Below, piece after piece: positions 6,893-61,208 of a DNA stretch of 64,000 nt; within the stretch, counting starts at the first letter, position 1, and every line of letters starts with the position of its first letter. Position numbers and translations under genes: made by a program. This DNA comes from Alloascoidea africana (Eukaryota > Ascomycota > Alloascoideomycetes > Alloascoideales > Alloascoideaceae), in NCBI GenBank assembly GCA_030581615.1, contig JAKTTT010000052.1, positions 79,681 to 143,680 of the forward strand, written 5' to 3'. The notes under the pieces are model-generated. The model was not told the DNA's origin, searched no databases, and worked only from the letters and a program-made list of their open reading frames with translations.

Positions 6893-9256
6893 ATGGCGGA
6901 TTTGGAGACCCAGAAAGTGCCTAAAGAGGTGGAGCAACCTACAGGTAAGAAGCCTGGTGCCAATGAGGAGAGTGATGATGATTATCAACCCGCTGAACCG
7001 TCATCCAAAGAAGAAACAGGAGCAGGAGCAAAGTCACATCTTGCGGCAATTAAAAACGAAGAAGATGGTCGAAATACACCTTCGTTTCTAAGAGGAGATT
7101 CTCCAGCAATACCTGTTGTGGAGCAGGATAAGAGCCCAGGGAGGGAAGAGGTCAAAGTCTCAGTGAGTAAGGCTGTTGATGATACAACAAATTCTATTGC
7201 CACACCTTCAAGTTCAAGCTCTTCTTCAGGTTCAGGTAAACGGAAAAGGCTTCCTAAGGACTTGATTGGGCGACTCGAAGAAAAACTTTCCGAAAACAAA
7301 TATGACCTTGATACCTGGCTTCAACTGATAGCTGAAGTGCAAAAAAAGGACAAGACTGAGGAAGTACGAAGTGTTTTTGATCAGTTCTTGGCTGTTTTCC
7401 CTACAAATGCCAAACATTGGGTGGCTTACATAGAATACGAGCTTTTACAAAACGATTTTCAAAGGGTGGAACAGCTATTTGCGAAATGTTTGCCGAATGT
7501 GAACAATGTGAAGTTGTGGCAGGGATATATCGACTATGTACGACGCGTGAACAACTTGACAACTGGTGGAGAAAAAGCTAGAGGCACGATAATGGAGGCT
7601 TTTGAGTTTGCAATTGAGAGAATTGGGTTGGATGAAGAGAGCGGGTTGATATGGGGTGACTATCTTGAGTTTTTAAGGGCTTGGAAGCCTATATCGACTT
7701 GGGAAGAGCAACAGAAGAATGACCTTCTCCGAAAGACTTATAGGCGTGCTATTGGGATTCCTTTGAACAACCTAGAGCTCCTTTGGCAAGGTTACAACTT
7801 GTTAGAAAACAACATGAACAAGTCGACTGCGCGAAAGTTTCTAGGCGAGAAATCCGGTGCCTATATGATTGCAAGATCCGGTTATAAAGAGCTATCAAAT
7901 TTGTTCAACCGTTTAAAGAGGCATGCCAATCCGAGAATACCCACCTGGACAGCAGCAGAGTTGGAGCAGCATGCTCTTTGGCAAAAATGGATAGATTGGG
8001 AACTCTCCAACCCATTAGAACTGACAAATACAAAAGATGTGGAGAAAAGAGTTATTTATGCATACCAACAAGCAGTAATGAGTTTGCGGTTTGTTCCCGA
8101 GGTGTGGTATAACGCAGCGAAATATGCATTTTCGTTGGAAGATGGGAAAGAACTTGCGGTCAAATTCATTACGAATGGGTTAGAGGCCAATCCAACATCC
8201 TATGTTTTGACTTTCTACATGGCAGAAGTTCATGAACAACAAGGAAACATCGAAGCTGTAAATGTGACATATCGCTCACTTATCAGCAAACTGAAAAAAC
8301 AGTTGGCAAAGTTGGAGACAGACAAGGATCACGAGGATTCTGGAGTGAAAAACGCGATTTCAGCAAAATATTCGGATTTGAGTGTGAATGTTACTCTTGT
8401 TTATGGGTTCTATATGAGAGCAATTAAGCGATCGGAGGGTTTAAAAGCAGCGCGACAGATTTTTTCAGAAGCTCGTAAGAGCAGCTTTATAACCTATCAC
8501 ATATTTGTCCAATCTGCAATAATGGAGTATCATAACGACAAGCAATCCAACATTGCATTCAAGGTGTTTGAAGTCGGGATGAAGAAATTCTTGCACATTG
8601 GTGCCTACATTCAAGAGTACCTAAAATTTCTAATTCTGATCAATGATGATACAAATGCAAGAGCTCTTTTTGAGCAAGGTGTGGGGAAGTTAAATGCACG
8701 AGACTCAATCCCATTATTTGAACAGTTTATTGAATACGAGGCGAATTTTGGAGATTTAGGAGCCGTTTTCCAATTACAGGAACGATACATGAAATTGTTT
8801 GCGGGTGTTGGCGTGAATGGATTCAAGGGAAATTCTGAGGCAAAGCCGGTAAGGAAACCAAGACAAAAGACAACGAAAAACATTGAGCTAAATCTTTTCG
8901 CATTGAGGTATACTGCTTTTGATATTGATTTGATTTACGATTATGATCTTGGACATCGGTTTATTGGGAAAGATCAGGGTATGAATGGAGTCAACAGGAA
9001 TGATGACGTTTACGGATCACCAGAACCAGTGACGAAAAGGATAAGAGAAGATTTTGGAGATTCTAAAACTGTTGCAGATAATAATAATAATAATAGTAAT
9101 GGCAACAGCAGCAATAATGGGCCTGAAGAATTTGTTGAAGATGAGGTCTATGAACTTTTGAGAATTTTGCCTACTGCGGAAAGTATGCCTGGTCCAATGT
9201 TTGATTCTAAAAAACTGGTTGAGTTGTTACGGGAGGTATTCATTCCAACCGATTAA
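6893..9256 (+). CDS. RNA14: RNA14, cleavage factor IA subunit (CstF-77 family)
   Basis: An uninterrupted 787-residue frame. Residues 1-115 are acidic and disordered. HAT repeats follow from about residue 120 to 650 (for example LDTWLQLIAEVQ, NAKHWVAYIEYEL, LWQGYIDYVRR, and IFVQSAIMEYH in the Suf-like part). The last roughly 60 residues (DEVYELLRILPTAESMPGP...LVELLREVFIP) form the 'monkeytail' that binds the Rna15 hinge in the family. The protein scaffolds CF IA in pre-mRNA 3'-end cleavage and polyadenylation. An Asn repeat encoded by (AAT)n lies near 9080-9120. It is divergent from SAM37, with about 200 bp between the two starts. Confidence 0.93.
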   Translation: MADLETQKVPKEVEQPTGKKPGANEESDDDYQPAEPSSKEETGAGAKSHLAAIKNEEDGRNTPSFLRGDSPAIPVVEQDKSPGREEVKVSVSKAVDDTTNSIATPSSSSSSSGSGKRKRLPKDLIGRLEEKLSENKYDLDTWLQLIAEVQKKDKTEEVRSVFDQFLAVFPTNAKHWVAYIEYELLQNDFQRVEQLFAKCLPNVNNVKLWQGYIDYVRRVNNLTTGGEKARGTIMEAFEFAIERIGLDEESGLIWGDYLEFLRAWKPISTWEEQQKNDLLRKTYRRAIGIPLNNLELLWQGYNLLENNMNKSTARKFLGEKSGAYMIARSGYKELSNLFNRLKRHANPRIPTWTAAELEQHALWQKWIDWELSNPLELTNTKDVEKRVIYAYQQAVMSLRFVPEVWYNAAKYAFSLEDGKELAVKFITNGLEANPTSYVLTFYMAEVHEQQGNIEAVNVTYRSLISKLKKQLAKLETDKDHEDSGVKNAISAKYSDLSVNVTLVYGFYMRAIKRSEGLKAARQIFSEARKSSFITYHIFVQSAIMEYHNDKQSNIAFKVFEVGMKKFLHIGAYIQEYLKFLILINDDTNARALFEQGVGKLNARDSIPLFEQFIEYEANFGDLGAVFQLQERYMKLFAGVGVNGFKGNSEAKPVRKPRQKTTKNIELNLFALRYTAFDIDLIYDYDLGHRFIGKDQGMNGVNRNDDVYGSPEPVTKRIREDFGDSKTVADNNNNNSNGNSSNNGPEEFVEDEVYELLRILPTAESMPGPMFDSKKLVELLREVFIPTD

Positions 9257-9890
9257 CAAAAAAAAAATGAAAGTCCAGCCTGATACGTTTCATGACAACA
9301 AAAGAATGAGACTGAAGATGGCGAACAGAAAACCGAGGGCATTAACAAAAACAACGACAAAAAAAAAACAGAAGATAAAAAATGAAGAGCATTTATTTTG
9401 TACCATATGATTCAGAAAGCTTGTACATATAATTAATGAAATATAGATGTAAAAATCACGTAGGAGCACCACCACTTCTATATCATTCTTTCTCTATAGC
9501 CTATAGTTTGTAAGCTTTCGGATATAATAATGGATATAAAGTATATGTTCTTGATTAAACAGAAGAAGACTGAGGAAAAATAAAACTATCTTTGAGTAGT
9601 GATTCACAAATTTTTTTCAACATTTTCTAGATTTCCAAAATCTCCAAAGTTAGAACAAAGAAGGTCGGTTCCATTATTTTATATACTATATATATACTTT
9701 CGTATGACAATTAACACCAATGCTTAAAACACGCAGCAAGAAAGTCGATAACTATTGCCAACATACGTATCAAATCTTCTCACAAACACAAACACAATTG
9801 TTGAGAACGGACGGCTAATTCTTGTTTCTCTTAACGATCCACCCACTGCCTGTCTTTCTTTTTATTATTATTACTATTACTATTCCTTCT
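9257..9890. other. Convergent 3' flanks of RNA14 and GSP1
   Basis: An AT-rich region with poly-A and poly-T tracts and TATATA runs such as 9677-9700, as expected for polyadenylation efficiency and positioning elements of two convergent genes. No gene seen. Confidence 0.5.
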
Positions 9891-10751
9891 TTAAAGGTCG
9901 TCGTCCTCTTCATCAGGCAATGGCATGGCGGTTGCCTGTTCCATCTCCTGTTGATACTTGTTCATCAAGTCAGCATCAACCTGGACCTCTGGAGGAGCCA
10001 AGGCAGGGGAAGCGACGAATTCCAATTGGGGGTTACCAACCAACTTTCTTGCAAGCCATAAGAAGGGTTTCTCAAAGTTGTAGTTGGACTTTGCGGAGAT
10101 ATCATAGTATTGTAGGTTCTTTTTGCGGTGGAAGGTGATCGTCTTGGCCTTGACCTTACGCTCTTTAACGTCGACCTTGTTACCGCAAAGAACGATGGGA
10201 ATGCTCTCACAAACACGGACTAAATCACGATGCCAGTTGGGAACATTCTTGTAGGTGATACGGGAGGTGACATCGAACATGATGATACCACAATTGCCAT
10301 TGATGTAGTAACCATCACGGAGCCCACCGAATTTTTCTTGTCCGGCTGTATCCCAAACATCAAACTTGATCTCGCCAAAGTTGGTGTGGAAGGCGAGAGG
10401 ATGGACTTCAACACCCAAAGTAGCAATGTATTTTTTCTCAAATTCGCCAGTCAAGTGACGTTTCACAAAGGTAGTCTAATAATTGGAATAAATTTGGTTA
10501 GATCTGTTGTTATCGCTTGTTGTGTGTTGTTGGACGGGGAAAAAGAGCAAAAAGTGAAAAACTTGATCCATTCCAATGGCTTGATCAGAACAGACAACAA
10601 GATCAAAAACTGAAAAAAAAAAAAAATACAAAATAATAATAATTATAGGGTGTCCAATTTGGAAACTCTGTGAATCGTCTAAACATACTTTACCAGTACC
10701 GCCATCTCCGACGAGAACCAATTTGAAAGTGGGCACCTGTTGTTCAGCCAT
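9891..10751 (-). CDS. GSP1: GSP1, Ran GTPase
   Basis: Two exons, 10689-10751 (21 codons) and 9891-10475, encode 215 residues. The intron 10476-10688 (213 nt) has a GTATGT donor, a TCTAAC branch about 20 nt before the acceptor and an ATTAG end. It interrupts the P-loop directly after GDGGTGK; exon 2 resumes with [57 protein letters not shown] and the acidic C-terminus PDEEDDDL are all Ran signatures. Ran drives nucleocytoplasmic transport and spindle assembly. There is no CAAX lipidation motif, as expected for Ran. Confidence 0.97.
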
Positions 10752-11290
10752 GTTTCCAGATATTTCGATTAAAATTAAGTCCTGGAAATAAACAAGACTA
10801 ACAAAAAAAAATTGGGAAAAGGAGAGGGAAAAAAAAAAAACTAGCGAGATCTGACCGGGTAACATGTTTGGTAAGAACGCATACTCTTGCAGCCAACCAC
10901 GTTCACGTGATGAAGTCAAAGAAGAATGATCTAAAATGAATAAAACTCATAGGCAAAGATATACTTATTGGTTTTATGATAAAATTCATTTTCGGGTTTA
11001 TGGTGATATTAGAGTTTAACTGAAGGAACATCTTACTTTTTGCAATAGGGTTGGTTGGTATTAGGGGTCATAACCAAATTAACTAGTCAATCTGGACAGA
11101 TTTCTCCAAAAATTCAAACTGAGAGATGACTGGTCTTTTAATTTTGATGTTTGATGGGGTAGATTGAGATGGTTATCACAATCGGTTGAATATTGACGAA
11201 AACAATCATCTCTTTTCCCATAATGTTTGTGTTTTCTCCAGAAAGTAAAGAATGTAGTCTTAAAATGTCTAACCTGTTCCATTATATATA
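10752..11290. other. Intergenic between GSP1 promoter and YHC1 3' end
   Basis: About 540 bp. It contains A-rich tracts upstream of GSP1 (10800-10840) and the 3' flank of YHC1. The short open frames here have no recognisable content. Confidence 0.45.
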
Positions 11291-11955
11291 TTAAACTCTG
11301 GATTGTACCGGTCTACTATATAAAGGAGCAGGAGGCGGTATCATCCCAGATATCGTTGGAGGTGGGGGTAAATATCTAGATTCCATAATTTCATAAGGTG
11401 CTCTTATTGGAGCCTGCTGCTGCTGCTGCTGATGTTGTTGTCTATTCTGTTTCTTGTGAGAAGTTTGATTGAGTCCTGGCATCCCCTCGTTAAGCGATTC
11501 CATAACGTCTCCGCCGGAACCAATTGTACCTTGTCTGTTTATCCCGTAAGCCATTCGAAAATCGCCCATATCTATCGGTATGTTGTTTTCTCGTGCGGCC
11601 TCTATCCAACAACAAAAAAAAATCAAGAAAGTGTTAGGTTATGATATGTTATCTTGGTTCAATGATTGTTGTTTAGAAGTGTACTTACTTTCATAATGAT
11701 CACAAACCAACTTTACATGCTGTCTTCCTGAAGCATGCGATCTCCTCACACTCATAGAGTCATGAGTTAAATAGACTATATTGAAATTGAAATGATTAAT
11801 ACACAATTTGAGAGAAACCAGGTTTTGTTTGTCACTTACCTTCGCAGTAATCGCAGAAATAGTAAACAAAAGAGAAACCAAAAAAAACAATAGATTGTTA
11901 GTACCGTGTACATCCAAAACACATGCAAAAGGTCTTGGATACGTATTTTAGGCAT
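11291..11955 (-). CDS. YHC1: YHC1, U1 snRNP-specific protein C (U1-C)
   Basis: Four exons are inferred: 11947-11955, 11840-11861, 11689-11775 and 11291-11601. They total 429 nt, encoding 142 residues. The product opens MPKYFCDYCEVYLTHDS, then VRRSHASGRQHVKLVCDHYE. This is the U1-C matrin-type zinc finger (CxxC...HxxxxxH). The C-terminal half is Pro/Gln rich with IPIDMGDFRMAYGIN and PPPPTISGMIPPPAPL. Introns 2 (11776-11839, GTAAGT...TATAG) and 3 (11602-11688, GTAAGT...CCTAACA...GATAG) are ordinary. Intron 1 (11862-11946) has a perfect TACTAAC branch but begins ATACGT and ends TTTAC; no AG lies between the branch site and the zinc finger codons. U1-C stabilises U1 pairing to 5' splice sites. 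The gene shares a 226-bp divergent promoter with the ADIP-family gene. Confidence 0.88.
11862..11946 (-). other. Apparent AT-AC intron (intron 1 of YHC1)
   Basis: This 85-nt intron follows a 9-nt first exon (ATG CCT AAA). It starts ATACGTATCC, contains TACTAAC about 35 nt before its end, then a T-rich tract, and ends TTTGTTTAC directly before TAT TTC TGC GAT TAC TGC. These ends are the only ones found that yield the family N-terminus M-P-K-Y-F-C-D-Y-C in frame. It resembles a GTACGT...AG intron with G1 changed to A and the final G changed to C. The placement is inferred from protein homology, not from transcripts. Confidence 0.65.
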
Positions 11956-12181
11956 AATTTGTATCTGATGGATGTGTATTCTTGTATTTTTGTGGTGGTT
12001 GATGGAGGTGGTGAGATATAGTGCTGAGGTTTACGCGCATGCGTGTATATTTGGTGGTGGGGGGCCCCTACACGACACGAACAAAAATGTGTACTTGGAG
12101 AATGGAAATTCAACAAAAACTACAATTCTCATTTGCGTTACTGTTTTTTGGGGTGTTTTGTTTAGGAAATTAAGAAGGGAA
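11956..12181. promoter_or_regulatory. Divergent promoter YHC1 / ADIP-family gene
   Basis: 226 bp separate the two ATGs. The region contains a G-rich stretch (12051-12066) and T-rich and A-rich tracts. No clear TATA box was seen on either strand. Confidence 0.4.
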
Positions 12182-13481
12182 ATGTCGGGATCTACACGGA
12201 ATGTTCAAAGTGCTGCTTCATTATTGAACAACACGCTTGTATCTAAAGGGTTTATCAAAGAGGATGAACAACTGATGTTTTGTTCCATTTCGTCTGATTT
12301 TGAACAGTTGATAGGGGCTCCCAATAACCATGAAAATGAAAATGAAAATGACGAAGGAGAAACAAACATTCGGGATTTTAGTGTCACGGAGACGATGTAT
12401 CGGAATGACAAGACCGTGATTAATCTTATTTATCAGTTGGTTCAAGCGGTGGAAAAGGGCAAGAAGCAAAAGGAGAGTTTGGTGAATAGTCTTAATTCGC
12501 GTCAGAATTTGGAACAGCAATTGAAGCAGGATAAGTTGAGGTTGGCGGAGAAGATTGATTTTTTGGAGAACAAGGTAAACAATCTGGAGAATTCAAAACA
12601 GTAAGTATATGTTTTGTTGTGCACATAGCAAGCACTCTACTAACAGAGGCAGGGTCGCTATTGCATCTATGCAAAGCCTTGAGCTTTCGAACCGGGGGTT
12701 GAAGGAAGAATTGGCGAAATCGAAACAGTTTAGCGGTGCTTTGCGAGACAGATTTTCCAATGAACTACGGAGGAAAGATGCGCAAGTTGCAAAGTTGAAG
12801 GACCGATTACAGGACAACCGAAAGCTCAAGTTGATTTCGGGCATCCAGGCCCAGCACAGTGGGAATGGGCTTGAGCTGGAGCAGTCAGTGGTGGATGCTG
12901 TGCTTGCCCAGAGCAATTCCGCCAGCAGCATCACAAGCAACAGCGAGATTCTGAACAAGGAGACGGAGACGATCATGTCGGACCTCACGACGCTGATTTT
13001 CAACCTGGCCGTGGAGAAGCAGGACATGATCCAGCTGTGCCGCAATGTCCAGAGATGGGTTTCCGCGTGTGCCCAAGGCCTCCAGGCGCCAGCTGCGACG
13101 GCGACGGCGACGGCTACGACTACGACTACGGATACAGCCAGCGACTCCATCCCACGGCCACAGGCCTTTCTGGAGTTCGAGGACGCCGCGGCCGGGGGGC
13201 TCGACCCGGGCAAGCTGGACCTGGCGCAGATGGTGCTGGAGCAGGAGGACTTTGGCACGGTGCGGCACAGCGTCGCGGCGTCGCTGGAGGCGCTGCGGCA
13301 GACGCTCGGACAGGTCGCGGGCTCTCCACGGGCGCCTCCCGCGGAGCTCGAGGCGAAGGAGCGCGAGGCCGCGGCTCTTCGCGAACAGCTGGCGGCGGCC
13401 ACGGCGAACTGGCGCAGTGCGATCGAGACGATGGAGCAGTGGCGGCGGTACCGGGGCGGGCGTGTGGGTGTAGCGGAATGA
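12182..13481 (+). CDS. ADIP (SSX2IP/Msd1)-family coiled-coil protein
   Basis: Two exons, 12182-12600 and 12653-13481, give 415 residues. The 52-nt intron has GTAAGT, TACTAAC and a GGCAG acceptor, and splicing preserves frame (CA|G GTC GCT). The N-terminal half carries the afadin/alpha-actinin-binding (ADIP) pattern: VQSAASLLNNTLVSKGF, then KTVINLIYQLVQAVEKGKKQ, followed by a long coiled coil to about residue 230. Known family members (vertebrate SSX2IP, fission yeast Msd1) anchor microtubule minus ends at centrosomes or spindle pole bodies; that role is inferred here. The C-terminal third is rich in Ala, Thr and Gly and the DNA becomes markedly GC-rich from about 13,030. The start MSGSTRNVQ was chosen because the family domain begins there; the upstream frame is promoter sequence. 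Confidence 0.72.
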
Positions 13482-13510
13482 GGCCGGTTTGTGTCGGGGC
13501 ATCTCGCTAC

Positions 13511-15037: not shown

Positions 15038-16612
15038 TCACATATCAATAAGGTTGTTCCTACTGCCTGATCGTCCAAGTCCCGGATGTCCACTTCCTGT
15101 GAAAGTATTTGTGTTCAAATTGCCAAATCCGTACCCTGTGGGCTGGGTCGTAAATGGATTCGCACCCATGGTGGCACTATTAGCACTCGTCGGGGGATTA
15201 GAAGGAATTCCTGTACCAGCAGAGTTTACAAAGCCGCCGGTGCTTCCGTGTTGAGCAGGAACACGAAGCTCACCCGTGTTGCCAAAAGTGTCGATTCCAC
15301 CGTCCTCGGCACCCGTTGCCAGAAGCGTGTTGAGTTCGCTATAGTGCTCGTTCGAGCCTGTCGTCGTGGCAGGTGCAGGTCCTGGGACAGGTCCTGGGGC
15401 AGCAGGTCCTGAAGCTGTTGTAGCTGCTGGTGGATATCCCTGAGAGCTCATGTTGGGACTGGTGCCCCCAAACGCAGAGGCCGATATTGGAGCAGCCATC
15501 GAGGGCGAGACCGGCGCAGACTTGGCAAAAGGATTGTTGGAGCCCGTTCTCAACGGCAGAGCCGTCGGACTCTGGCCCTGAGGCTGGCCCTGAGGCTGGC
15601 CCTGAGGCTGGCCCTGAGGCTGGCCCTGGGTGTCGTAGAAGCTGTTGAGAAAGCCCGTTTGCAGCGGCTGCTGGATCTGCTGCTGGGGCGGGCGCGAGTA
15701 GCTGAAACCGCCCGAGGGCTCCATATCGATCAGCGACACCTCGGGCACCGGGATCGAGGCCTGGGACGACTGCGATTGCGATTGCCTCAGAGCCATCTGG
15801 TACGCAGAGTCCTCCTGGTCCTTCATCCGCTCGCGGGTCATCTCTTCCTCCTTGCTGAGCAAAATGGCCCTGCGCAGATCCTCGTCCTCCACCGACTCCA
15901 GCTGCCGTCGCTGCTCTTCAGCCTGTGCGGTCCGCCTGCTCTCTTCCAGCGCCTTTGCCAGCTCCTCGTTCGGGTCCGCTGCCTGGGGCCGGGGAGCCTC
16001 TTCCTGGACCGTCGCCACGTTGAACGAGTTGCTTCGTCTGGGAGGTGGCGGATACTCTGGCGGGCCGAACGTGCCCAGGGTCATACTTCTCGTGGCTGTC
16101 CCCATGGGCATGGGTGAGGCCATCGAGTAGCCGTTGCCGTTGCTATTGCTATTGCTATTGCCATTGCCAACTCCCAAGGACGCCCGCTCTGCCATCAGAC
16201 GCTCCTTGTTCATCAGCAGGCCGTAGAGAATGTTCGCCCTGTCGCGGATTGCAATGCCTTGGTCCAAACCGTGTTCATCCAGATATCGAAACTCTCTCAG
16301 GGTCTTGATTTCGTAGAGTCGCTGGTCGCACCAAGCAATCATGCTCTCGTCGCCGTGACGGACCAGATAATCCAGAACCACCAGAGATTTACAAACGTGT
16401 CGCCAGTTCTTGCCCTTGTCGTTCAGCCGCCTCTCCAGAATGTCGATGATTTCCAACCGCTCCACCACAAAGTACGACAACTGGGCCAGGTCCTGCATCT
16501 CCGCGGTCGTGGGGCCCAGCGGCTCGTTGCTGGTCGCGTTGCGGGCTCGCACCTGGGTCGGAGTGTAGCCCACGGCCCTGTTCTTGATCGATCGCACGAT
16601 GGCCTTGGACAT
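15038..16612 (-). CDS. ENT1: Epsin (ENT1/ENT2 family)
   Basis: 524 residues from MSKAIVRSIKNRAVGYTPTQ. This is the canonical start of the ENTH domain, which continues through VRARNATSNEPLGPTTAEM, ERRLNDKGKNWRHVCKSLVVLDYL and DRANILYGLL (about residues 1-150). Ubiquitin-interacting motifs follow around residues 210-280: NEELAKALEESRRTAQ, DEDLRRAILLSKEEE and DSAYQMALRQSQSQ. Two NPF motifs (SNNPFAKS, GANPFTT) would bind EH-domain proteins, and the C-terminus NLIDM is a clathrin-box-like motif. The protein links PI(4,5)P2 membranes, ubiquitinated cargo and clathrin in endocytosis; CHC1 is 24 kb away in this window. A QPQG tandem repeat is encoded near 15,572-15,628. ENT1 versus ENT2 cannot be distinguished. 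Confidence 0.92.
   Translation of the reverse strand: MSKAIVRSIKNRAVGYTPTQVRARNATSNEPLGPTTAEMQDLAQLSYFVVERLEIIDILERRLNDKGKNWRHVCKSLVVLDYLVRHGDESMIAWCDQRLYEIKTLREFRYLDEHGLDQGIAIRDRANILYGLLMNKERLMAERASLGVGNGNSNSNSNGNGYSMASPMPMGTATRSMTLGTFGPPEYPPPPRRSNSFNVATVQEEAPRPQAADPNEELAKALEESRRTAQAEEQRRQLESVEDEDLRRAILLSKEEEMTRERMKDQEDSAYQMALRQSQSQSSQASIPVPEVSLIDMEPSGGFSYSRPPQQQIQQPLQTGFLNSFYDTQGQPQGQPQGQPQGQPQGQSPTALPLRTGSNNPFAKSAPVSPSMAAPISASAFGGTSPNMSSQGYPPAATTASGPAAPGPVPGPAPATTTGSNEHYSELNTLLATGAEDGGIDTFGNTGELRVPAQHGSTGGFVNSAGTGIPSNPPTSANSATMGANPFTTQPTGYGFGNLNTNTFTGSGHPGLGRSGSRNNLIDM
15572..15628 (+). repeat. 12-bp tandem repeat within epsin
   Basis: Nearly five copies of CTGGCCCTGAGG, encoding a QPQG repeat on the minus strand. 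It lies in the disordered region between the UIMs and the NPF motifs, so copy number can vary without breaking frame. Confidence 0.85.
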
Positions 16613-26766: not shown

Positions 26767-28598
<1,832 letters not shown>

Positions 28599-29240
28599 AT
28601 GAAAACCTATGCATTCAATACAGCCAAGATGGAAACGCTGGATTCGTTAAGTTACATCGATGGCGACATATCAGATGAACAGAGATCTGTTGTAGAAAAA
28701 CTCATAGAATCAGAGCTAAAGACAACAAAAACTGCAAAACTTCACAAGCGAGTCACAGAGCTGTTTCCATCCGACCAACACAATACGCACTCACTTTTTG
28801 AACAAGAGATAGAAAAAATAGCAAGCATTGCAGAATCAAACGGATCATTTAAAGAAAATGAATACAGTATGGGAGGGGTAAATCTATCAAAGTATTCAGA
28901 CCTATATGACGAAAGTAAAGGAGGAGAGTTTGACTTCAGAAAAGCCTATACTGCTCTTTCGCTCACACTTTTAAGAGAACGATCCAACGCATTACTAGCA
29001 GAGCATGGCAAAAACCACTGGCTAAGGACACTTGAGTGCACGTCAAATAGTGTGGAAATTGTAGAAAGAGAAGTGAACGAAAAGAGAAAAGCTGTGGAAG
29101 ATATAAATAGTGAAAGAAAGCGACGGCAACTCGAGGCAAAGCCCAAGCTAGACTACTTGACACAAACATGGAAAGAAGAAATCAAGGGATCTATTAATGT
29201 GGGAATAGCTATAGCAGAACTGCAGGCTCAGACGAGATGA
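28599..29240 (+). CDS. SNT309: SNT309 / SPF27 (BCAS2 family) splicing factor
   Basis: 213 residues. The N-terminus METLDSLSYIDGDISDEQR matches the (V)DSLPYID start of the BCAS2/Cwf7 family. HWLRTLECTSNSVEIVEREVNEKRKAVEDIN and the coiled-coil C-terminus fit it as well. It is a Prp19-complex (NTC) subunit needed for spliceosome activation. Two in-frame ATGs are possible (28599 and 28629); human BCAS2 also has residues before this motif, so the first is given. It fits the intron-rich genome, but the protein is required in intron-poor yeasts too. Confidence 0.82.
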   Translation: MKTYAFNTAKMETLDSLSYIDGDISDEQRSVVEKLIESELKTTKTAKLHKRVTELFPSDQHNTHSLFEQEIEKIASIAESNGSFKENEYSMGGVNLSKYSDLYDESKGGEFDFRKAYTALSLTLLRERSNALLAEHGKNHWLRTLECTSNSVEIVEREVNEKRKAVEDINSERKRRQLEAKPKLDYLTQTWKEEIKGSINVGIAIAELQAQTR

Positions 29241-36978: not shown

Positions 36979-39900
36979 TTAGATGAGGTAGAAGAATAAA
37001 GAAGCCAAGCCAAGTACAATTCCAGAAACTTGCTGCTTTGAAGCACCACCTTCATAAGAACTGGCGCTGACAGTATAGTTTGGAATTTCGACGGTTGGAG
37101 AAGAGGAAGAAATGATTGATATAACTGTGGAGGATTGTGGCAATGTTGTAGAAGTTGAACTAGGAGACTCGACTGAAGAGGTCTCGACTGTAGGTTCTTC
37201 TTTAGGAGTGGATGTGGGAACAGAGACGACGGAATAAAAGCTGATCACAGAGCTCGTTTCAATTGTCGTGGGGATCGTACAAGTTGACAGACAGCTAATG
37301 GTTACAGATGAAGGGCCGGTTACGCTATATTCCGTGCTGTCGATAGTAAATGTTGTAGGCGTTGGATAGAATGTCGTAAACTTGGTGACTTTCGTTTGAG
37401 AAGCACTCGTTATCTTGATAGTCGAAGAAAATAGAGAAGTGGAACTGACTTGAATCTCTCGGTCAGTTGTTTTGGTTATCACAACGGAAGAGCTGCTTGT
37501 GCTTGGAACTATTGTCACAGAAGACTCGATGACGGTGGAAGGCGAACTGGTACTTTTGGTAACGGTTACAATGTCTTCTGAAACAGGAGCAGTTGTGGTA
37601 CTTTCAACTGTAGAACAGACAGAGTTTTCGCAAGTAGTAGTGGTAACACTCTCGATAGAACTCGAACTCTTGACAATGATAATTGTGCTAGTGCTCTCCG
37701 AAACCGGTACAGATGAGGTCTTGATTGTACTCTCAAGAATAGCTGAGCTCACAGAGGTTTCAACAGTTGAACAAGTAGAGCTTTCGCAAGTAACGGTAGT
37801 GACATTCTCGACTGGTGTTGACAAAGATTCGGTTGTAGAAAAGCTCTCAAGCGTACTCTCAGAGCTTGAACTCTTGGTAATGATAATGGTGCTAGTGCTC
37901 TCTGAAACTGCTACGGATGAAGTCTCGATCGTGCTTTCGACAGGGGTAGAGCTCACAGAAACTTCAACAGTTGTACAAGTAGACCTTTCGCAGGTAATCT
38001 CGGTCGTGGTGATTTCTCTAGGAACAGTGGAAGAGCTGGTCTGTGATGAAGACTCGCTGGTAGTTTCTTCTGTAGAAATGACACTTGTGGTTAAGGCTGT
38101 GCTACTGCTCTCTGATACGGTCAGGTAAATAGTAGTCGTTGAAGTGCCTTCAGAAGATGATACTGATGGAATATCTCGCGATAAAATTTCAGTAGTGGTT
38201 TCTTCCTCGGAAGATGTCACTGTCGTTGTACTTTCTGAAACTTCTGATGTCAGTACTGTACTCGACTTTGAGATAATTCTTGTGGAAACCGTGGTATCGA
38301 TTGGAGGAACACTGGAGCTGGAAACGCTAGAAACAAATGTGACTGGAACAGTGCATGTAGTTTCGCAAGGGAAGGTAATAGTTGAGGGCTCAGTAACTAT
38401 AATCGTCGAGTTTTTGAAACTGATAGTGGTAGGAGTAGAGCAATATGTAATGTACTCTGTTACCCCAGTCGAAGAAACCACGGTGATTGAACTAACGGAA
38501 TACTTGGAGACGGTTGTTGATGGAATCACAGTAGAGGTTATGACAGATGTCTCCAATGTAGTAGATAAGTTTGGAACAGGTACGGTTTTCTCAGAAGAAA
38601 AAGCAGTAGAGTTTTCATACTTTGTTTTACTGGAAGTGAGAGTGATCAACGTAGTTGTAGTTTCTTCTTCTGTTGATAAGGTAGTAGTCTTGGTAGTCTC
38701 CACAGAACTGGTTAAATTAGACCAAGCAGTGGTGGTAGTTGGGGTAGTTGAAACTGTGATCTCTCTTGGAGTAGTACTGCTCTCAACTGAACATTGTGAA
38801 ATACAACTGGTGATAGTTAAAGTAGTAGCTTCCGTAACAGTATAAGTCTTGCTATCGATAGTCAAAGTTGTAGGAGTAGGACAATAGGTGGTAAACGACG
38901 TGATCACAGCAGTTTCTGTCACCGAAGTGGTTGCTTCTGTCGAGATAGTATAGAACTCGGTTTCTGTTACTGTTGGATTCACATAGCTGGTTTTGGATAT
39001 TTCTCTTGGAGTAGTAGTGCTCTCAACTGGACACTGTGAGATACAGCTGGTGATAGTTAGAGTAGTGGCCTCGGTAACAGTGTAAGTCTTGCTATCAATA
39101 GTCAAAGTTGTAGGAGTAGGACAATAGGTGGTAAAAGAAGTAATTATCGCTGTTTCAGTTACAGAGGTTGTCGCTTCAGTAGAAACAGTGTAAAATTCAG
39201 TAGTAGTCACAGTTGAGTTGATAAAACTACTCTTTGAAAGCGAAGTTTCCTTTGAAGTTGTGCTGCTCTCCACAGGACATTGCGAAATGCAACTAGTGAT
39301 AGTTAAAGTAGTGGCCTCGGTAACCGTGTAAGTCTTGCTATCAATAGTCAAGGTGGTCGGGGTAGGACAATAGGTGGTAAACGAAGTTATTATCGCTGTT
39401 TCGGTCACAGAGGTTGTCGCTTGAGTTGAAATAGTATAAAACTCGGTTTCTGTTACTGTTGAATTGACGAAACTGCTTTGCGATATTTCCCTGGGGGCAG
39501 TAGTAGTCTCCACTGGGCATCTTGAAATACAACTGGTTATAGTCAGAGTGGTAGCTTCCGTAACAGTATAGGTCTTGCTATCAATAGTCAAAGTTGTAGG
39601 AGTAGGGCAGTACGTAGTAAACGATGTAATTACAGCAGTTTCTGTTACCGACGTGGTTGCCTCGGTTGAGATAGTATAAAACTCGGTTTCTGTTACTGTT
39701 GAGTTTGAGAGAGTACTTTCCGTCACAGTTCTAGCACTTTCTGTAGCAGAGGACGATGGAGATGGAGACACATTGACATATACTGTTGACTGCGATAACG
39801 ATGAAACATCAGAATCCGAGCTTGGTCCATTAATATAGCTTGTGAGCTGAGAAAGAGAGGAGCTGAGGGGGACAGAGCTGCTGGAAGGCTCGCTAATGTA

Positions 39901-40155
39901 AACAGTTGACTGGGACAAAGATGGGACAGCCGTAACCGGAATGGTGCAAGGGCAGTCAGTAATGGTCAGGGTTGTTGGTTCAGTTACAGTATAAGTCACT
40001 CCATTCTGAGTAAATATCGTTGGGGAAGGACAATAGGTGGTGTAGGAAGTAACAGTAGTAGTTTCTGTTGAAGTAGCATTTGCGTATCCCGCGAATCTGC
40101 TTGCGGTGGTATATCCAATTGCACAGGCAAAAGTAGCCAGAAAAGAAAACTTCAT
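36979..40155 (-). CDS. Large repeat-rich GPI cell-wall protein / putative adhesin
   Basis: 1058 residues. A signal peptide (MKFSFLATFACAIGYTTAS) is followed by TTTVTSYTTYCPSPTIFTQN and VTEPTTLTITDCPCTIP, a motif shared with yeast wall proteins. Four tandem copies of an 80-82 residue unit (YTIST, TTYCPTPTTLTIDSKTYTVTE, TTLTITSC) follow, then long Ser/Thr tracts with degenerate copies. The C-terminus ends in a GPI signal: ASSYEGGASKQQ then VSGIVLGLASLFFYLI. It is predicted to be GPI-anchored and wall cross-linked, and heavily O-mannosylated. No lectin domain (PA14, Flo11) is visible, so adhesion is only inferred. A TATATAAG box sits about 78 nt upstream. Confidence 0.9.
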   Translation of the reverse strand: MKFSFLATFACAIGYTTASRFAGYANATSTETTTVTSYTTYCPSPTIFTQNGVTYTVTEPTTLTITDCPCTIPVTAVPSLSQSTVYISEPSSSSVPLSSSLSQLTSYINGPSSDSDVSSLSQSTVYVNVSPSPSSSATESARTVTESTLSNSTVTETEFYTISTEATTSVTETAVITSFTTYCPTPTTLTIDSKTYTVTEATTLTITSCISRCPVETTTAPREISQSSFVNSTVTETEFYTISTQATTSVTETAIITSFTTYCPTPTTLTIDSKTYTVTEATTLTITSCISQCPVESSTTSKETSLSKSSFINSTVTTTEFYTVSTEATTSVTETAIITSFTTYCPTPTTLTIDSKTYTVTEATTLTITSCISQCPVESTTTPREISKTSYVNPTVTETEFYTISTEATTSVTETAVITSFTTYCPTPTTLTIDSKTYTVTEATTLTITSCISQCSVESSTTPREITVSTTPTTTTAWSNLTSSVETTKTTTLSTEEETTTTLITLTSSKTKYENSTAFSSEKTVPVPNLSTTLETSVITSTVIPSTTVSKYSVSSITVVSSTGVTEYITYCSTPTTISFKNSTIIVTEPSTITFPCETTCTVPVTFVSSVSSSSVPPIDTTVSTRIISKSSTVLTSEVSESTTTVTSSEEETTTEILSRDIPSVSSSEGTSTTTIYLTVSESSSTALTTSVISTEETTSESSSQTSSSTVPREITTTEITCERSTCTTVEVSVSSTPVESTIETSSVAVSESTSTIIITKSSSSESTLESFSTTESLSTPVENVTTVTCESSTCSTVETSVSSAILESTIKTSSVPVSESTSTIIIVKSSSSIESVTTTTCENSVCSTVESTTTAPVSEDIVTVTKSTSSPSTVIESSVTIVPSTSSSSVVITKTTDREIQVSSTSLFSSTIKITSASQTKVTKFTTFYPTPTTFTIDSTEYSVTGPSSVTISCLSTCTIPTTIETSSVISFYSVVSVPTSTPKEEPTVETSSVESPSSTSTTLPQSSTVISIISSSSPTVEIPNYTVSASSYEGGASKQQVSGIVLGLASLFFYLI
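38770..39710 (-). repeat. Four tandem copies of a 240-246 bp repeat in the cell-wall protein
   Basis: The same segment recurs at 38855, 39095, 39341 and 39581 (spacing 240, 246 and 240 bp). Nucleotide identity is high within the TTYCPTPTTLTIDSKTYTVTE block, and the linkers (ISQSSFVN, LSKSSFIN, ISKTSYVN) vary. More diverged copies of the YCPTPTT unit lie outside the array near 37,350, 38,440 and 40,030. Confidence 0.88.
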
Positions 40156-40881
40156 TGTTGGGAGTTTGCTTACTAGTCTGAAAGCGTGAATAATGGTGAA
40201 AAAAAAAAGATTTTTGGCTTCCTCGTCTTGATCTTATATAATTGAAACCAAAATGAGAAGGTTGGTTTCTTGTGAAGACTGCGCACAATTCAGGAAACAG
40301 AAGATTCCTAATTCGGCATCTTACAGGTTCACGATAGAGGTGGGTTGTCATCGGATTATTGCTGCCATCTTCGGAAAAAACTCAGGACCTCTATAATACC
40401 CTATAATAATGTCCACATGAATAAAAAATGTAAACAGATTTGAGAGTACGATATTTAAGTGGTGGGTTTGTATTCGTGGCGCAAACAGAAAGCGCTGCAG
40501 AGTTCAAGAGAGAGCGTAAAAATAATCTGGCATCCCTAACCCGCCTCTTTGAATTCATTGCAAGAGACCTAAAAAAAGACTGCAAAGGCGCTTTTTCACA
40601 AATGACCGCGGCTGTTTTCTCGGGTATTTGTCCCTGAACCTTACTCACCATGGAAAATTGAATGGCTTGCAAATAAGAGATTTGGAGTTATCACATACTA
40701 GCGAAGCAGTTCCCACGACGAGCTTCTGCCATTAATTTTGCAAATCTTGAAAATACAAGTTCCTCCTCATGAAATCAATTACTGTAATTATTATCACTTA
40801 CATTTTTATTTTTATTACAAACTAAGCTGACAAACTAAGCTGACAAAAATTCTAGAGACTAATCAATCTGGAACGTAGTTC
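40156..40881. promoter_or_regulatory. Promoter of the cell-wall gene and CHC1 3' flank
   Basis: 726 bp. TATATAAG (minus strand) lies at 40233-40240, about 78 nt before the cell-wall gene ATG. The remaining sequence is AT-rich with no gene. Confidence 0.5.
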
Positions 40882-60983: not shown

Positions 60984-61208
60984 GGCTGATCTTAAAGGAG
61001 AGGAATTTGGTAAAGATTGAAGGAAAAGTAAGTTGTTTTGCGAAGTTTAGTACGAGAAAAGCAACACCTATTACAGATAGTTACCCGGAATTTGCAGTGG
61101 ATGTTGACGTGGTCAAAGTTGTCCTGTGTATATTACAGCACGCTGCGTAATCGTAGCACAAATACTAACACAAAGCATTGTAGATTGAATACTAAGTTAG
61201 CGAAATAA

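Follow-up and report, generated by a model that had tools for sequence, protein, structure and literature searches.

The locus raises the question of which ends a spliceosome could use to remove an intron that offers no AG before the codons it must release. In the 64-kb stretch of Alloascoidea africana DNA analysed here (the window; positions 79,681 to 143,680 of contig JAKTTT010000052.1, assembly GCA_030581615.1, numbered below from 1), the minus strand carries YHC1, the gene for U1-C, and this situation arises in its first intron. Our best reading, already proposed in a first-pass annotation of the same letters, is that YHC1 intron 1 is very likely a U2-type AT-AC intron that would be removed by the major spliceosome. 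This reading is well supported by sequence together with homology, as are the identity of the gene as U1-C and its exon junctions, while splicing itself, the class of the spliceosome and the efficiency of the reaction are what we infer from them. 

Gene model of YHC1 and identity of its product

YHC1 runs on the minus strand from 11955 to 11291 in four exons that sum to 429 nt, a total divisible by three as the first-pass annotation had counted, and re-reading of the frame gave 142 codons and only one stop, at the end. The coding part of exon 1 (11947-11955) consists of ATG CCT AAA and encodes Met-Pro-Lys, MPK being the N-terminus of human U1-C (PDB 2vrd) as well. Intron 1 (11862-11946, 85 nt, phase 0) reads ATACGT ... 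TTTGTTTAC and is followed by exon 2 (TATTTCTGCGATTACTGCGAAG, 11840-11861), TAT TTC TGC GAT TAC TGC GAA G, which encodes YFCDYCE, contributes a single base to a split codon and holds the zinc ligands Cys6 and Cys9. Downstream lie intron 2 (11776-11839, 64 nt, GTAAGT...TATAG), exon 3 (11689-11775, VYLTHDSMSVRRSHASGRQHVKLVCDHYE), whose first and last codons are split with the neighbouring exons, intron 3 (11602-11688, 87 nt, GTAAGT...GATAG) and exon 4 (11291-11601), which extends through the stop codon. The earlier placement of ATG CCT AAA 85 nt upstream of the zinc-finger exon, with TACTAAC between them, was recovered on re-reading (11955-11947, 11946-11862 and 11903-11897, respectively).

The Pfam search matched the product to zf-U1 (PF06220) over the full model (1-38 of 38, E 2.6e-17). 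Without gaps and from residue 1, it also aligned with human U1-C (2vrd, E 5.1e-14) and with a 231-residue chain of 5zwn (E 1.6e-10), which we take, judging by its length (PMC3985668), to be S. cerevisiae Yhc1. In the three-way alignment 17 columns were identical, including Met1, Cys6, Cys9, His24 and His30, so that the product has the N-terminal U1 zinc finger of U1-C/Yhc1, starting at residue 1 with C6, C9, H24 and H30. Searches of viral and prokaryote contigs, with the single sequence and with the three-sequence alignment, returned no relatives. Cys6 is encoded by the third codon past the intron 1 junction, and in S. cerevisiae Yhc1 it is not replaceable by alanine, the Cys6Ala change being lethal (PMC3985668), so an mRNA without these codons should be non-functional.

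The ATG taken as the start of a divergently oriented neighbour is only 226 bp from the YHC1 ATG, which leaves little space for a remote exon 1; the frame of the neighbour has further in-frame ATGs upstream of this assumed start. By eye, the plus strand shows GTAAAC...TTTTAG over nearly the same interval as intron 1 (11862-11951), and unstranded RNA-seq could therefore mix up both strands. If intron 1 is spliced as read, U1-C of Alloascoidea africana would be overlooked or given a wrong start by gene finders restricted to GT-AG.

Intron ends that the protein allows

We enumerated all combinations of ATG, donor and acceptor, taking ATGs below 12700 and a first exon-2 base from 11892 to 11853 (n=133,680), and ranked the ends by protein similarity only, blind to splice motifs. 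The frame was open into the zinc finger in 9,490 combinations, of which 115 kept Cys at position 6, and an AG acceptor occurred in none of the 9,490. Read upstream from the YFCDYC codons, the zinc-finger frame meets a stop at the TAA within TACTAAC (TAC-TAA-C), and downstream of the branch motif no AG is completed before 11840, the end of exon 2, as expected from the earlier statement that AG is absent between the branch site and the zinc-finger codons. Because of the in-frame stop and the lack of an AG ahead of these codons, no AG acceptor yields U1-C from the present sequence.

Among the 115 models that kept Cys6, AT-AC was the single best (BLOSUM62 score of 23 over five residues, runner-up 20), and when 16 residues were scored from the ATG at 11955 it was the sole best of 1,307 open models (86, runner-up 83). 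The ends selected by protein similarity alone prove to be AT and AC. The claim that these are the only ends keeping frame and family length was too strong when taken literally, given the 115 models, and stands as a statement of best fit. Under like scoring of control introns, the GT-AG ends were joint best in GSP1 (a three-way tie, of 1,223 models) and in CHC1 (a two-way tie, of 1,488), and the tied models differ by shifts that leave the protein unchanged; the yardstick for GSP1 starts with the window's own N-terminus, which makes it the weaker control because it is not independent.

As an alternative, a U2-type intron could combine a GT donor, GTATCC at 11942, with an acceptor other than AG, a TTG ending at 11867. 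This leaves the frame open and gives the product MPKILYYFCDYC, and acceptors of the BG type, assisted by poly-U, are used in S. cerevisiae, chiefly without Prp18 (PMC10711555). This model is nevertheless very unlikely in our estimate, since three additional residues would precede the first zinc cysteine, whose position in both aligned relatives is 6, and the GTATCC donor is without G5.

Other ways of bridging the gap would be a nested intron (stwintron), a non-spliceosomal intron or a decayed copy of YHC1. HAC1-type introns carry hairpins, and intron 1 with its flanks folded no better than shuffled sequences (z 0.54; 139 of 200 shuffles were equally good), giving no sign of such structures. 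Stwintrons are known in ascomycetes, including Lipomyces (PMC7138796), but one placed here would still need a final AG acceptor, and none is present from the in-frame stop up to the codons of the zinc finger. With the 142-codon frame intact, which speaks against decay, we judge this whole group of explanations extremely unlikely.

Splicing signals of intron 1

On the minus strand, the AT-AC intron would begin with the 5' splice site ATACGT (11941-11946), in which position +1 is A and after which the next AT could lengthen the pairing with U1. A perfect TACTAAC branch site follows at 11897-11903, with the presumed branch A at 11898, 36 nt from the last intron base, and a T-rich tract (11865-11896) leads from there to the 3' splice site TAC (11862-11864). 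The latter provides the first AC past the branch motif, ending at 11862; the next ends at 11847. The composition of the window predicts 0.007 occurrences of TACTAAC in 79 positions, and the whole 64 kb holds seven, counting both strands; by plain arithmetic, a random pair of dinucleotides would match AT and AC with a chance of 1/16 x 1/16 = 1/256. The pattern ATANGT, TACTAAC and YAG or YAC had three combinations in the window, among which only YHC1 intron 1 has an AC end, and a looser search for AT-AC candidates with CTAAC gave 17 combinations, so that the window may hold further AT-AC introns.

These features are those of a major-class intron, namely AT and AC ends set by the coding flanks, a 5' site (ATACGTAT) that is not RTATCCTT, and TACTAAC with a T-rich tract. 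A U12-type AT-AC intron would have in its favour the AT-AC ends only, and its probability is practically negligible. By hand count, ATACGTAT agrees with RTATCCTT (PMC2846911) at 4 of 8 positions, a figure that rises to 5 if the T permitted at +6 is included. The branch site is a U2-type TACTAAC at 36 nt from the intron end, and Ascomycota yielded no convincing minor introns in a survey that covered more than 3,000 genomes (PMC10639083). In an Rfam search of the window all families stayed below their gathering scores, which weighs little against a U12-type intron as the snRNA genes are expected elsewhere; a tRNA scan of the window with bacterial settings likewise returned none.

Intron 1 is two substitutions away from a perfect canonical GTACGT...TTTAG intron, and its end bases are known from a single assembly, so that base errors at both ends are formally possible. 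Real ends of GTACGT and TTTAG, hidden by a sequencing or assembly error, are however highly improbable, as they would require two independent errors, 84 nt apart, that gave exactly the pair best able to replace GT-AG, in a gene whose remainder is intact.

If the AT-AC reading is right, intron 1 would amount to a canonical GTACGT-TACTAAC-TTTAG intron carrying a compensated G1A plus G-1C change. U1, and then U6, would pair with AUACGU, the pairing with U1 being possible at +2, +3, +5, +6, +7 and +8, and the consensus UACUAAC with its U-rich tract would be used by BBP/Mud2 and then by U2. Step 1 would take place at a weak donor, aided by the consensus branch site, after which the first downstream AC would be docked through a non-Watson-Crick A1/C-1 contact in place of G1/G-1 and the exons ligated through that contact. 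Removal of intron 1 would be required for making U1-C.

Other introns and features of the window

A scan for GT donors and AG acceptors combined with reading by eye gave 15 candidate introns, YHC1 intron 2 being added by hand, of which 12 were kept on reading-frame support and three were dropped (61028-61175 on the plus strand, 33688-33618 and 32670-32595 on the minus strand). The 12 are GT-AG by construction and are thus uninformative on the frequency of AT-AC in the window; their donors are GTAAGT or GTATGT. The duplex of the donor with the 5' arm of U1 had an energy of -1.4 kcal/mol for YHC1 intron 1, against -4.2 to -10.8 kcal/mol for the 12 GT-AG introns, so that U1 pairing was weakest at YHC1 intron 1 among the 13 introns compared. 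For the comparison introns, branch positions were assigned with a permissive pattern, and some of them, for example that of YHC1 intron 3, may be incorrect. By search, the intron-holding genes belong to the Ras-like (GSP1), SecY (SEC61), clathrin (CHC1) and DUF498 families, with a sub-threshold ADIP match in addition; others are presumably RPL11, SOD1, VPS25 and an NDUFAF3-like gene. In a 52-nt intron with reading-frame support only (12601-12652, plus strand), the branch A of TACTAAC is 9 nt from the accepted 3' end and an AG comes right after the branch motif.

YHC1 contains no CTG codons and RPT2 contains eight, of which the four inspected by eye (134, 238, 418 and 421) align with leucine in the best-matching solved Rpt2, which we take to be the yeast protein; codes in which CTG is read as serine or alanine are therefore unlikely. 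The GC content is 0.70 at 13000-13499, compared with 0.34-0.44 in seven 500-base stretches from 9000 to 12499, and is likewise high (0.65) at 15500-15999. An open frame of 1,084 residues on the minus strand (36979-40233) had no Pfam match at E 0.001.

Comparison with known AT-AC introns

U2-type AT-AC introns occur in animals, for example in sodium-channel genes. They were described by Wu and Krainer in 1997 (cited in PMC6726248), and about 42 AT-AC introns are credible in C. elegans, an animal that seemingly lacks U12-type snRNAs (PMC3033335). Common to these and the YHC1 intron are AT-AC ends with otherwise major-class signals, whereas the YHC1 intron has the strict yeast TACTAAC and sits in the U1-C gene. 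In S. cerevisiae, AT-AC was the most efficient combination of ends after GT-AG (Parker and Siliciano 1993, as cited in PMC6726248), in agreement with the link to first- and last-base compensation drawn in the first-pass annotation, and it is normally used by no standard yeast intron (PMC6726248). Their double mutant has the same first and last bases in a yeast intron, but it was engineered, whereas YHC1 intron 1 is apparently natural and obligatory. AT-AC junctions have also been cloned from the SUT635 protointron of S. cerevisiae, and RPL30 shows alternative AT-AC use (PMC6726248). Both share with YHC1 the natural use of AT-AC by the yeast major spliceosome; SUT635 is however non-coding and the RPL30 junction an alternative one, while in YHC1 AT-AC is the best-fitting and apparently the only good way to encode the protein.

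In Aspergillus telomerase RNA, the 3'-end intron carries the 5' site AUA(A/C)GU (PMC4299874), one variant of which is the YHC1 hexamer, read by a fungal major spliceosome. Placed in fission yeast, the A. niger sequence underwent step 1 cleavage with hardly any ligation, which the authors attributed to the lost contact between the first and last bases (PMC4299874). A+1 blocks exon ligation there, whereas in YHC1 the terminal C should restore it. Compatible with the AT-AC reading, A+1 might also slow or stall the spliceosome after step 1, so that intron 1 would mainly lower or regulate YHC1 output; the block to ligation caused by the AU 5' site in A. niger is a precedent (PMC4299874), and we consider this quite unlikely because the last base of intron 1 is C, which is known to partner A1, and because exon ligation is needed for an essential protein.

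Major-spliceosome AT-AC introns in animals and AT-AC junctions in fungal RNA-seq are already known. An RNA-seq survey of fungal pathogens found AT-AC at 0.09-5.19% of junctions across species, with raised values for C. albicans and C. glabrata (PMC6176087); some of these junctions may not be real introns. Furthermore, 0.019% of annotated fungal introns are AT-AC (PMC7072748). Among the matches listed by a literature search with subscription journals mostly outside its reach, no title or abstract opening described an AT-AC intron in YHC1/U1-C, and those matches held no precedent for a natural, obligatory AT-AC intron in an essential gene of a budding yeast. In the available main text of two papers on yeast or fungal introns (PMC4202332 and PMC8476143) neither 'AT-AC' nor 'YHC1' appears, and the available text of PMC6461851 has matches in reference entries only. 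If intron 1 is spliced as read, the double change by which the interaction of first and last bases was established in yeast would have arisen in nature and persisted there, in a gene where splicing failure should be lethal. The intron would then serve to test in a natural setting how A+1/C-1 is dealt with by a spliceosome of the TACTAAC type, and whether the U1-C gene can rely on a 5' site that is poorly bound by U1.

Possible consequences for YHC1 expression

With all introns retained, translation from the YHC1 ATG would give 39 residues before a stop, and U1-C is therefore not encoded by the unspliced mRNA. YHC1 expression is probably held back somewhat by intron 1, while regulation of the gene through its splicing is a guess. 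Purified S. cerevisiae U1 could still bind when position +1 formed an A/C mismatch, but hardly any of this binding was long-lived, and Yhc1 and Luc7 sit at the U1 duplex near +1 (PMC9436412). Human U1-C contacts only the backbone near the junction and helps several mismatched sites (+1C, -1C, +3U, +4U and +5C), A+1 not being among the mismatches named in the available text (PMC4383343). Should both findings also apply to YHC1 intron 1, with its A+1 site binding U1 weakly and U1-C aiding it, more U1-C would be expected to bring more splicing of its own mRNA. The autoregulation suggested in the first-pass annotation, if present, would on this analysis probably take the form of a positive loop in its simplest version, not a homeostatic one, and its sign is doubtful.

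A further proposal, which we regard as unlikely, is that the AT-AC ends are kept as a sensor of U1 quality. A+1 would break the U1 base pair adjoining Yhc1 and Luc7, making U1-C output steeply dependent on functional U1-C, and the result would be a self-reinforcing switch, or a homeostatic one if U1-C rejects +1 mismatches here. If this were true, relatives should retain the intron as AT-AC.

YHC1 shares the window with a BCAS2-family gene on the plus strand (28572-29240), which we take to encode a Prp19-complex spliceosome protein, SNT309-like.
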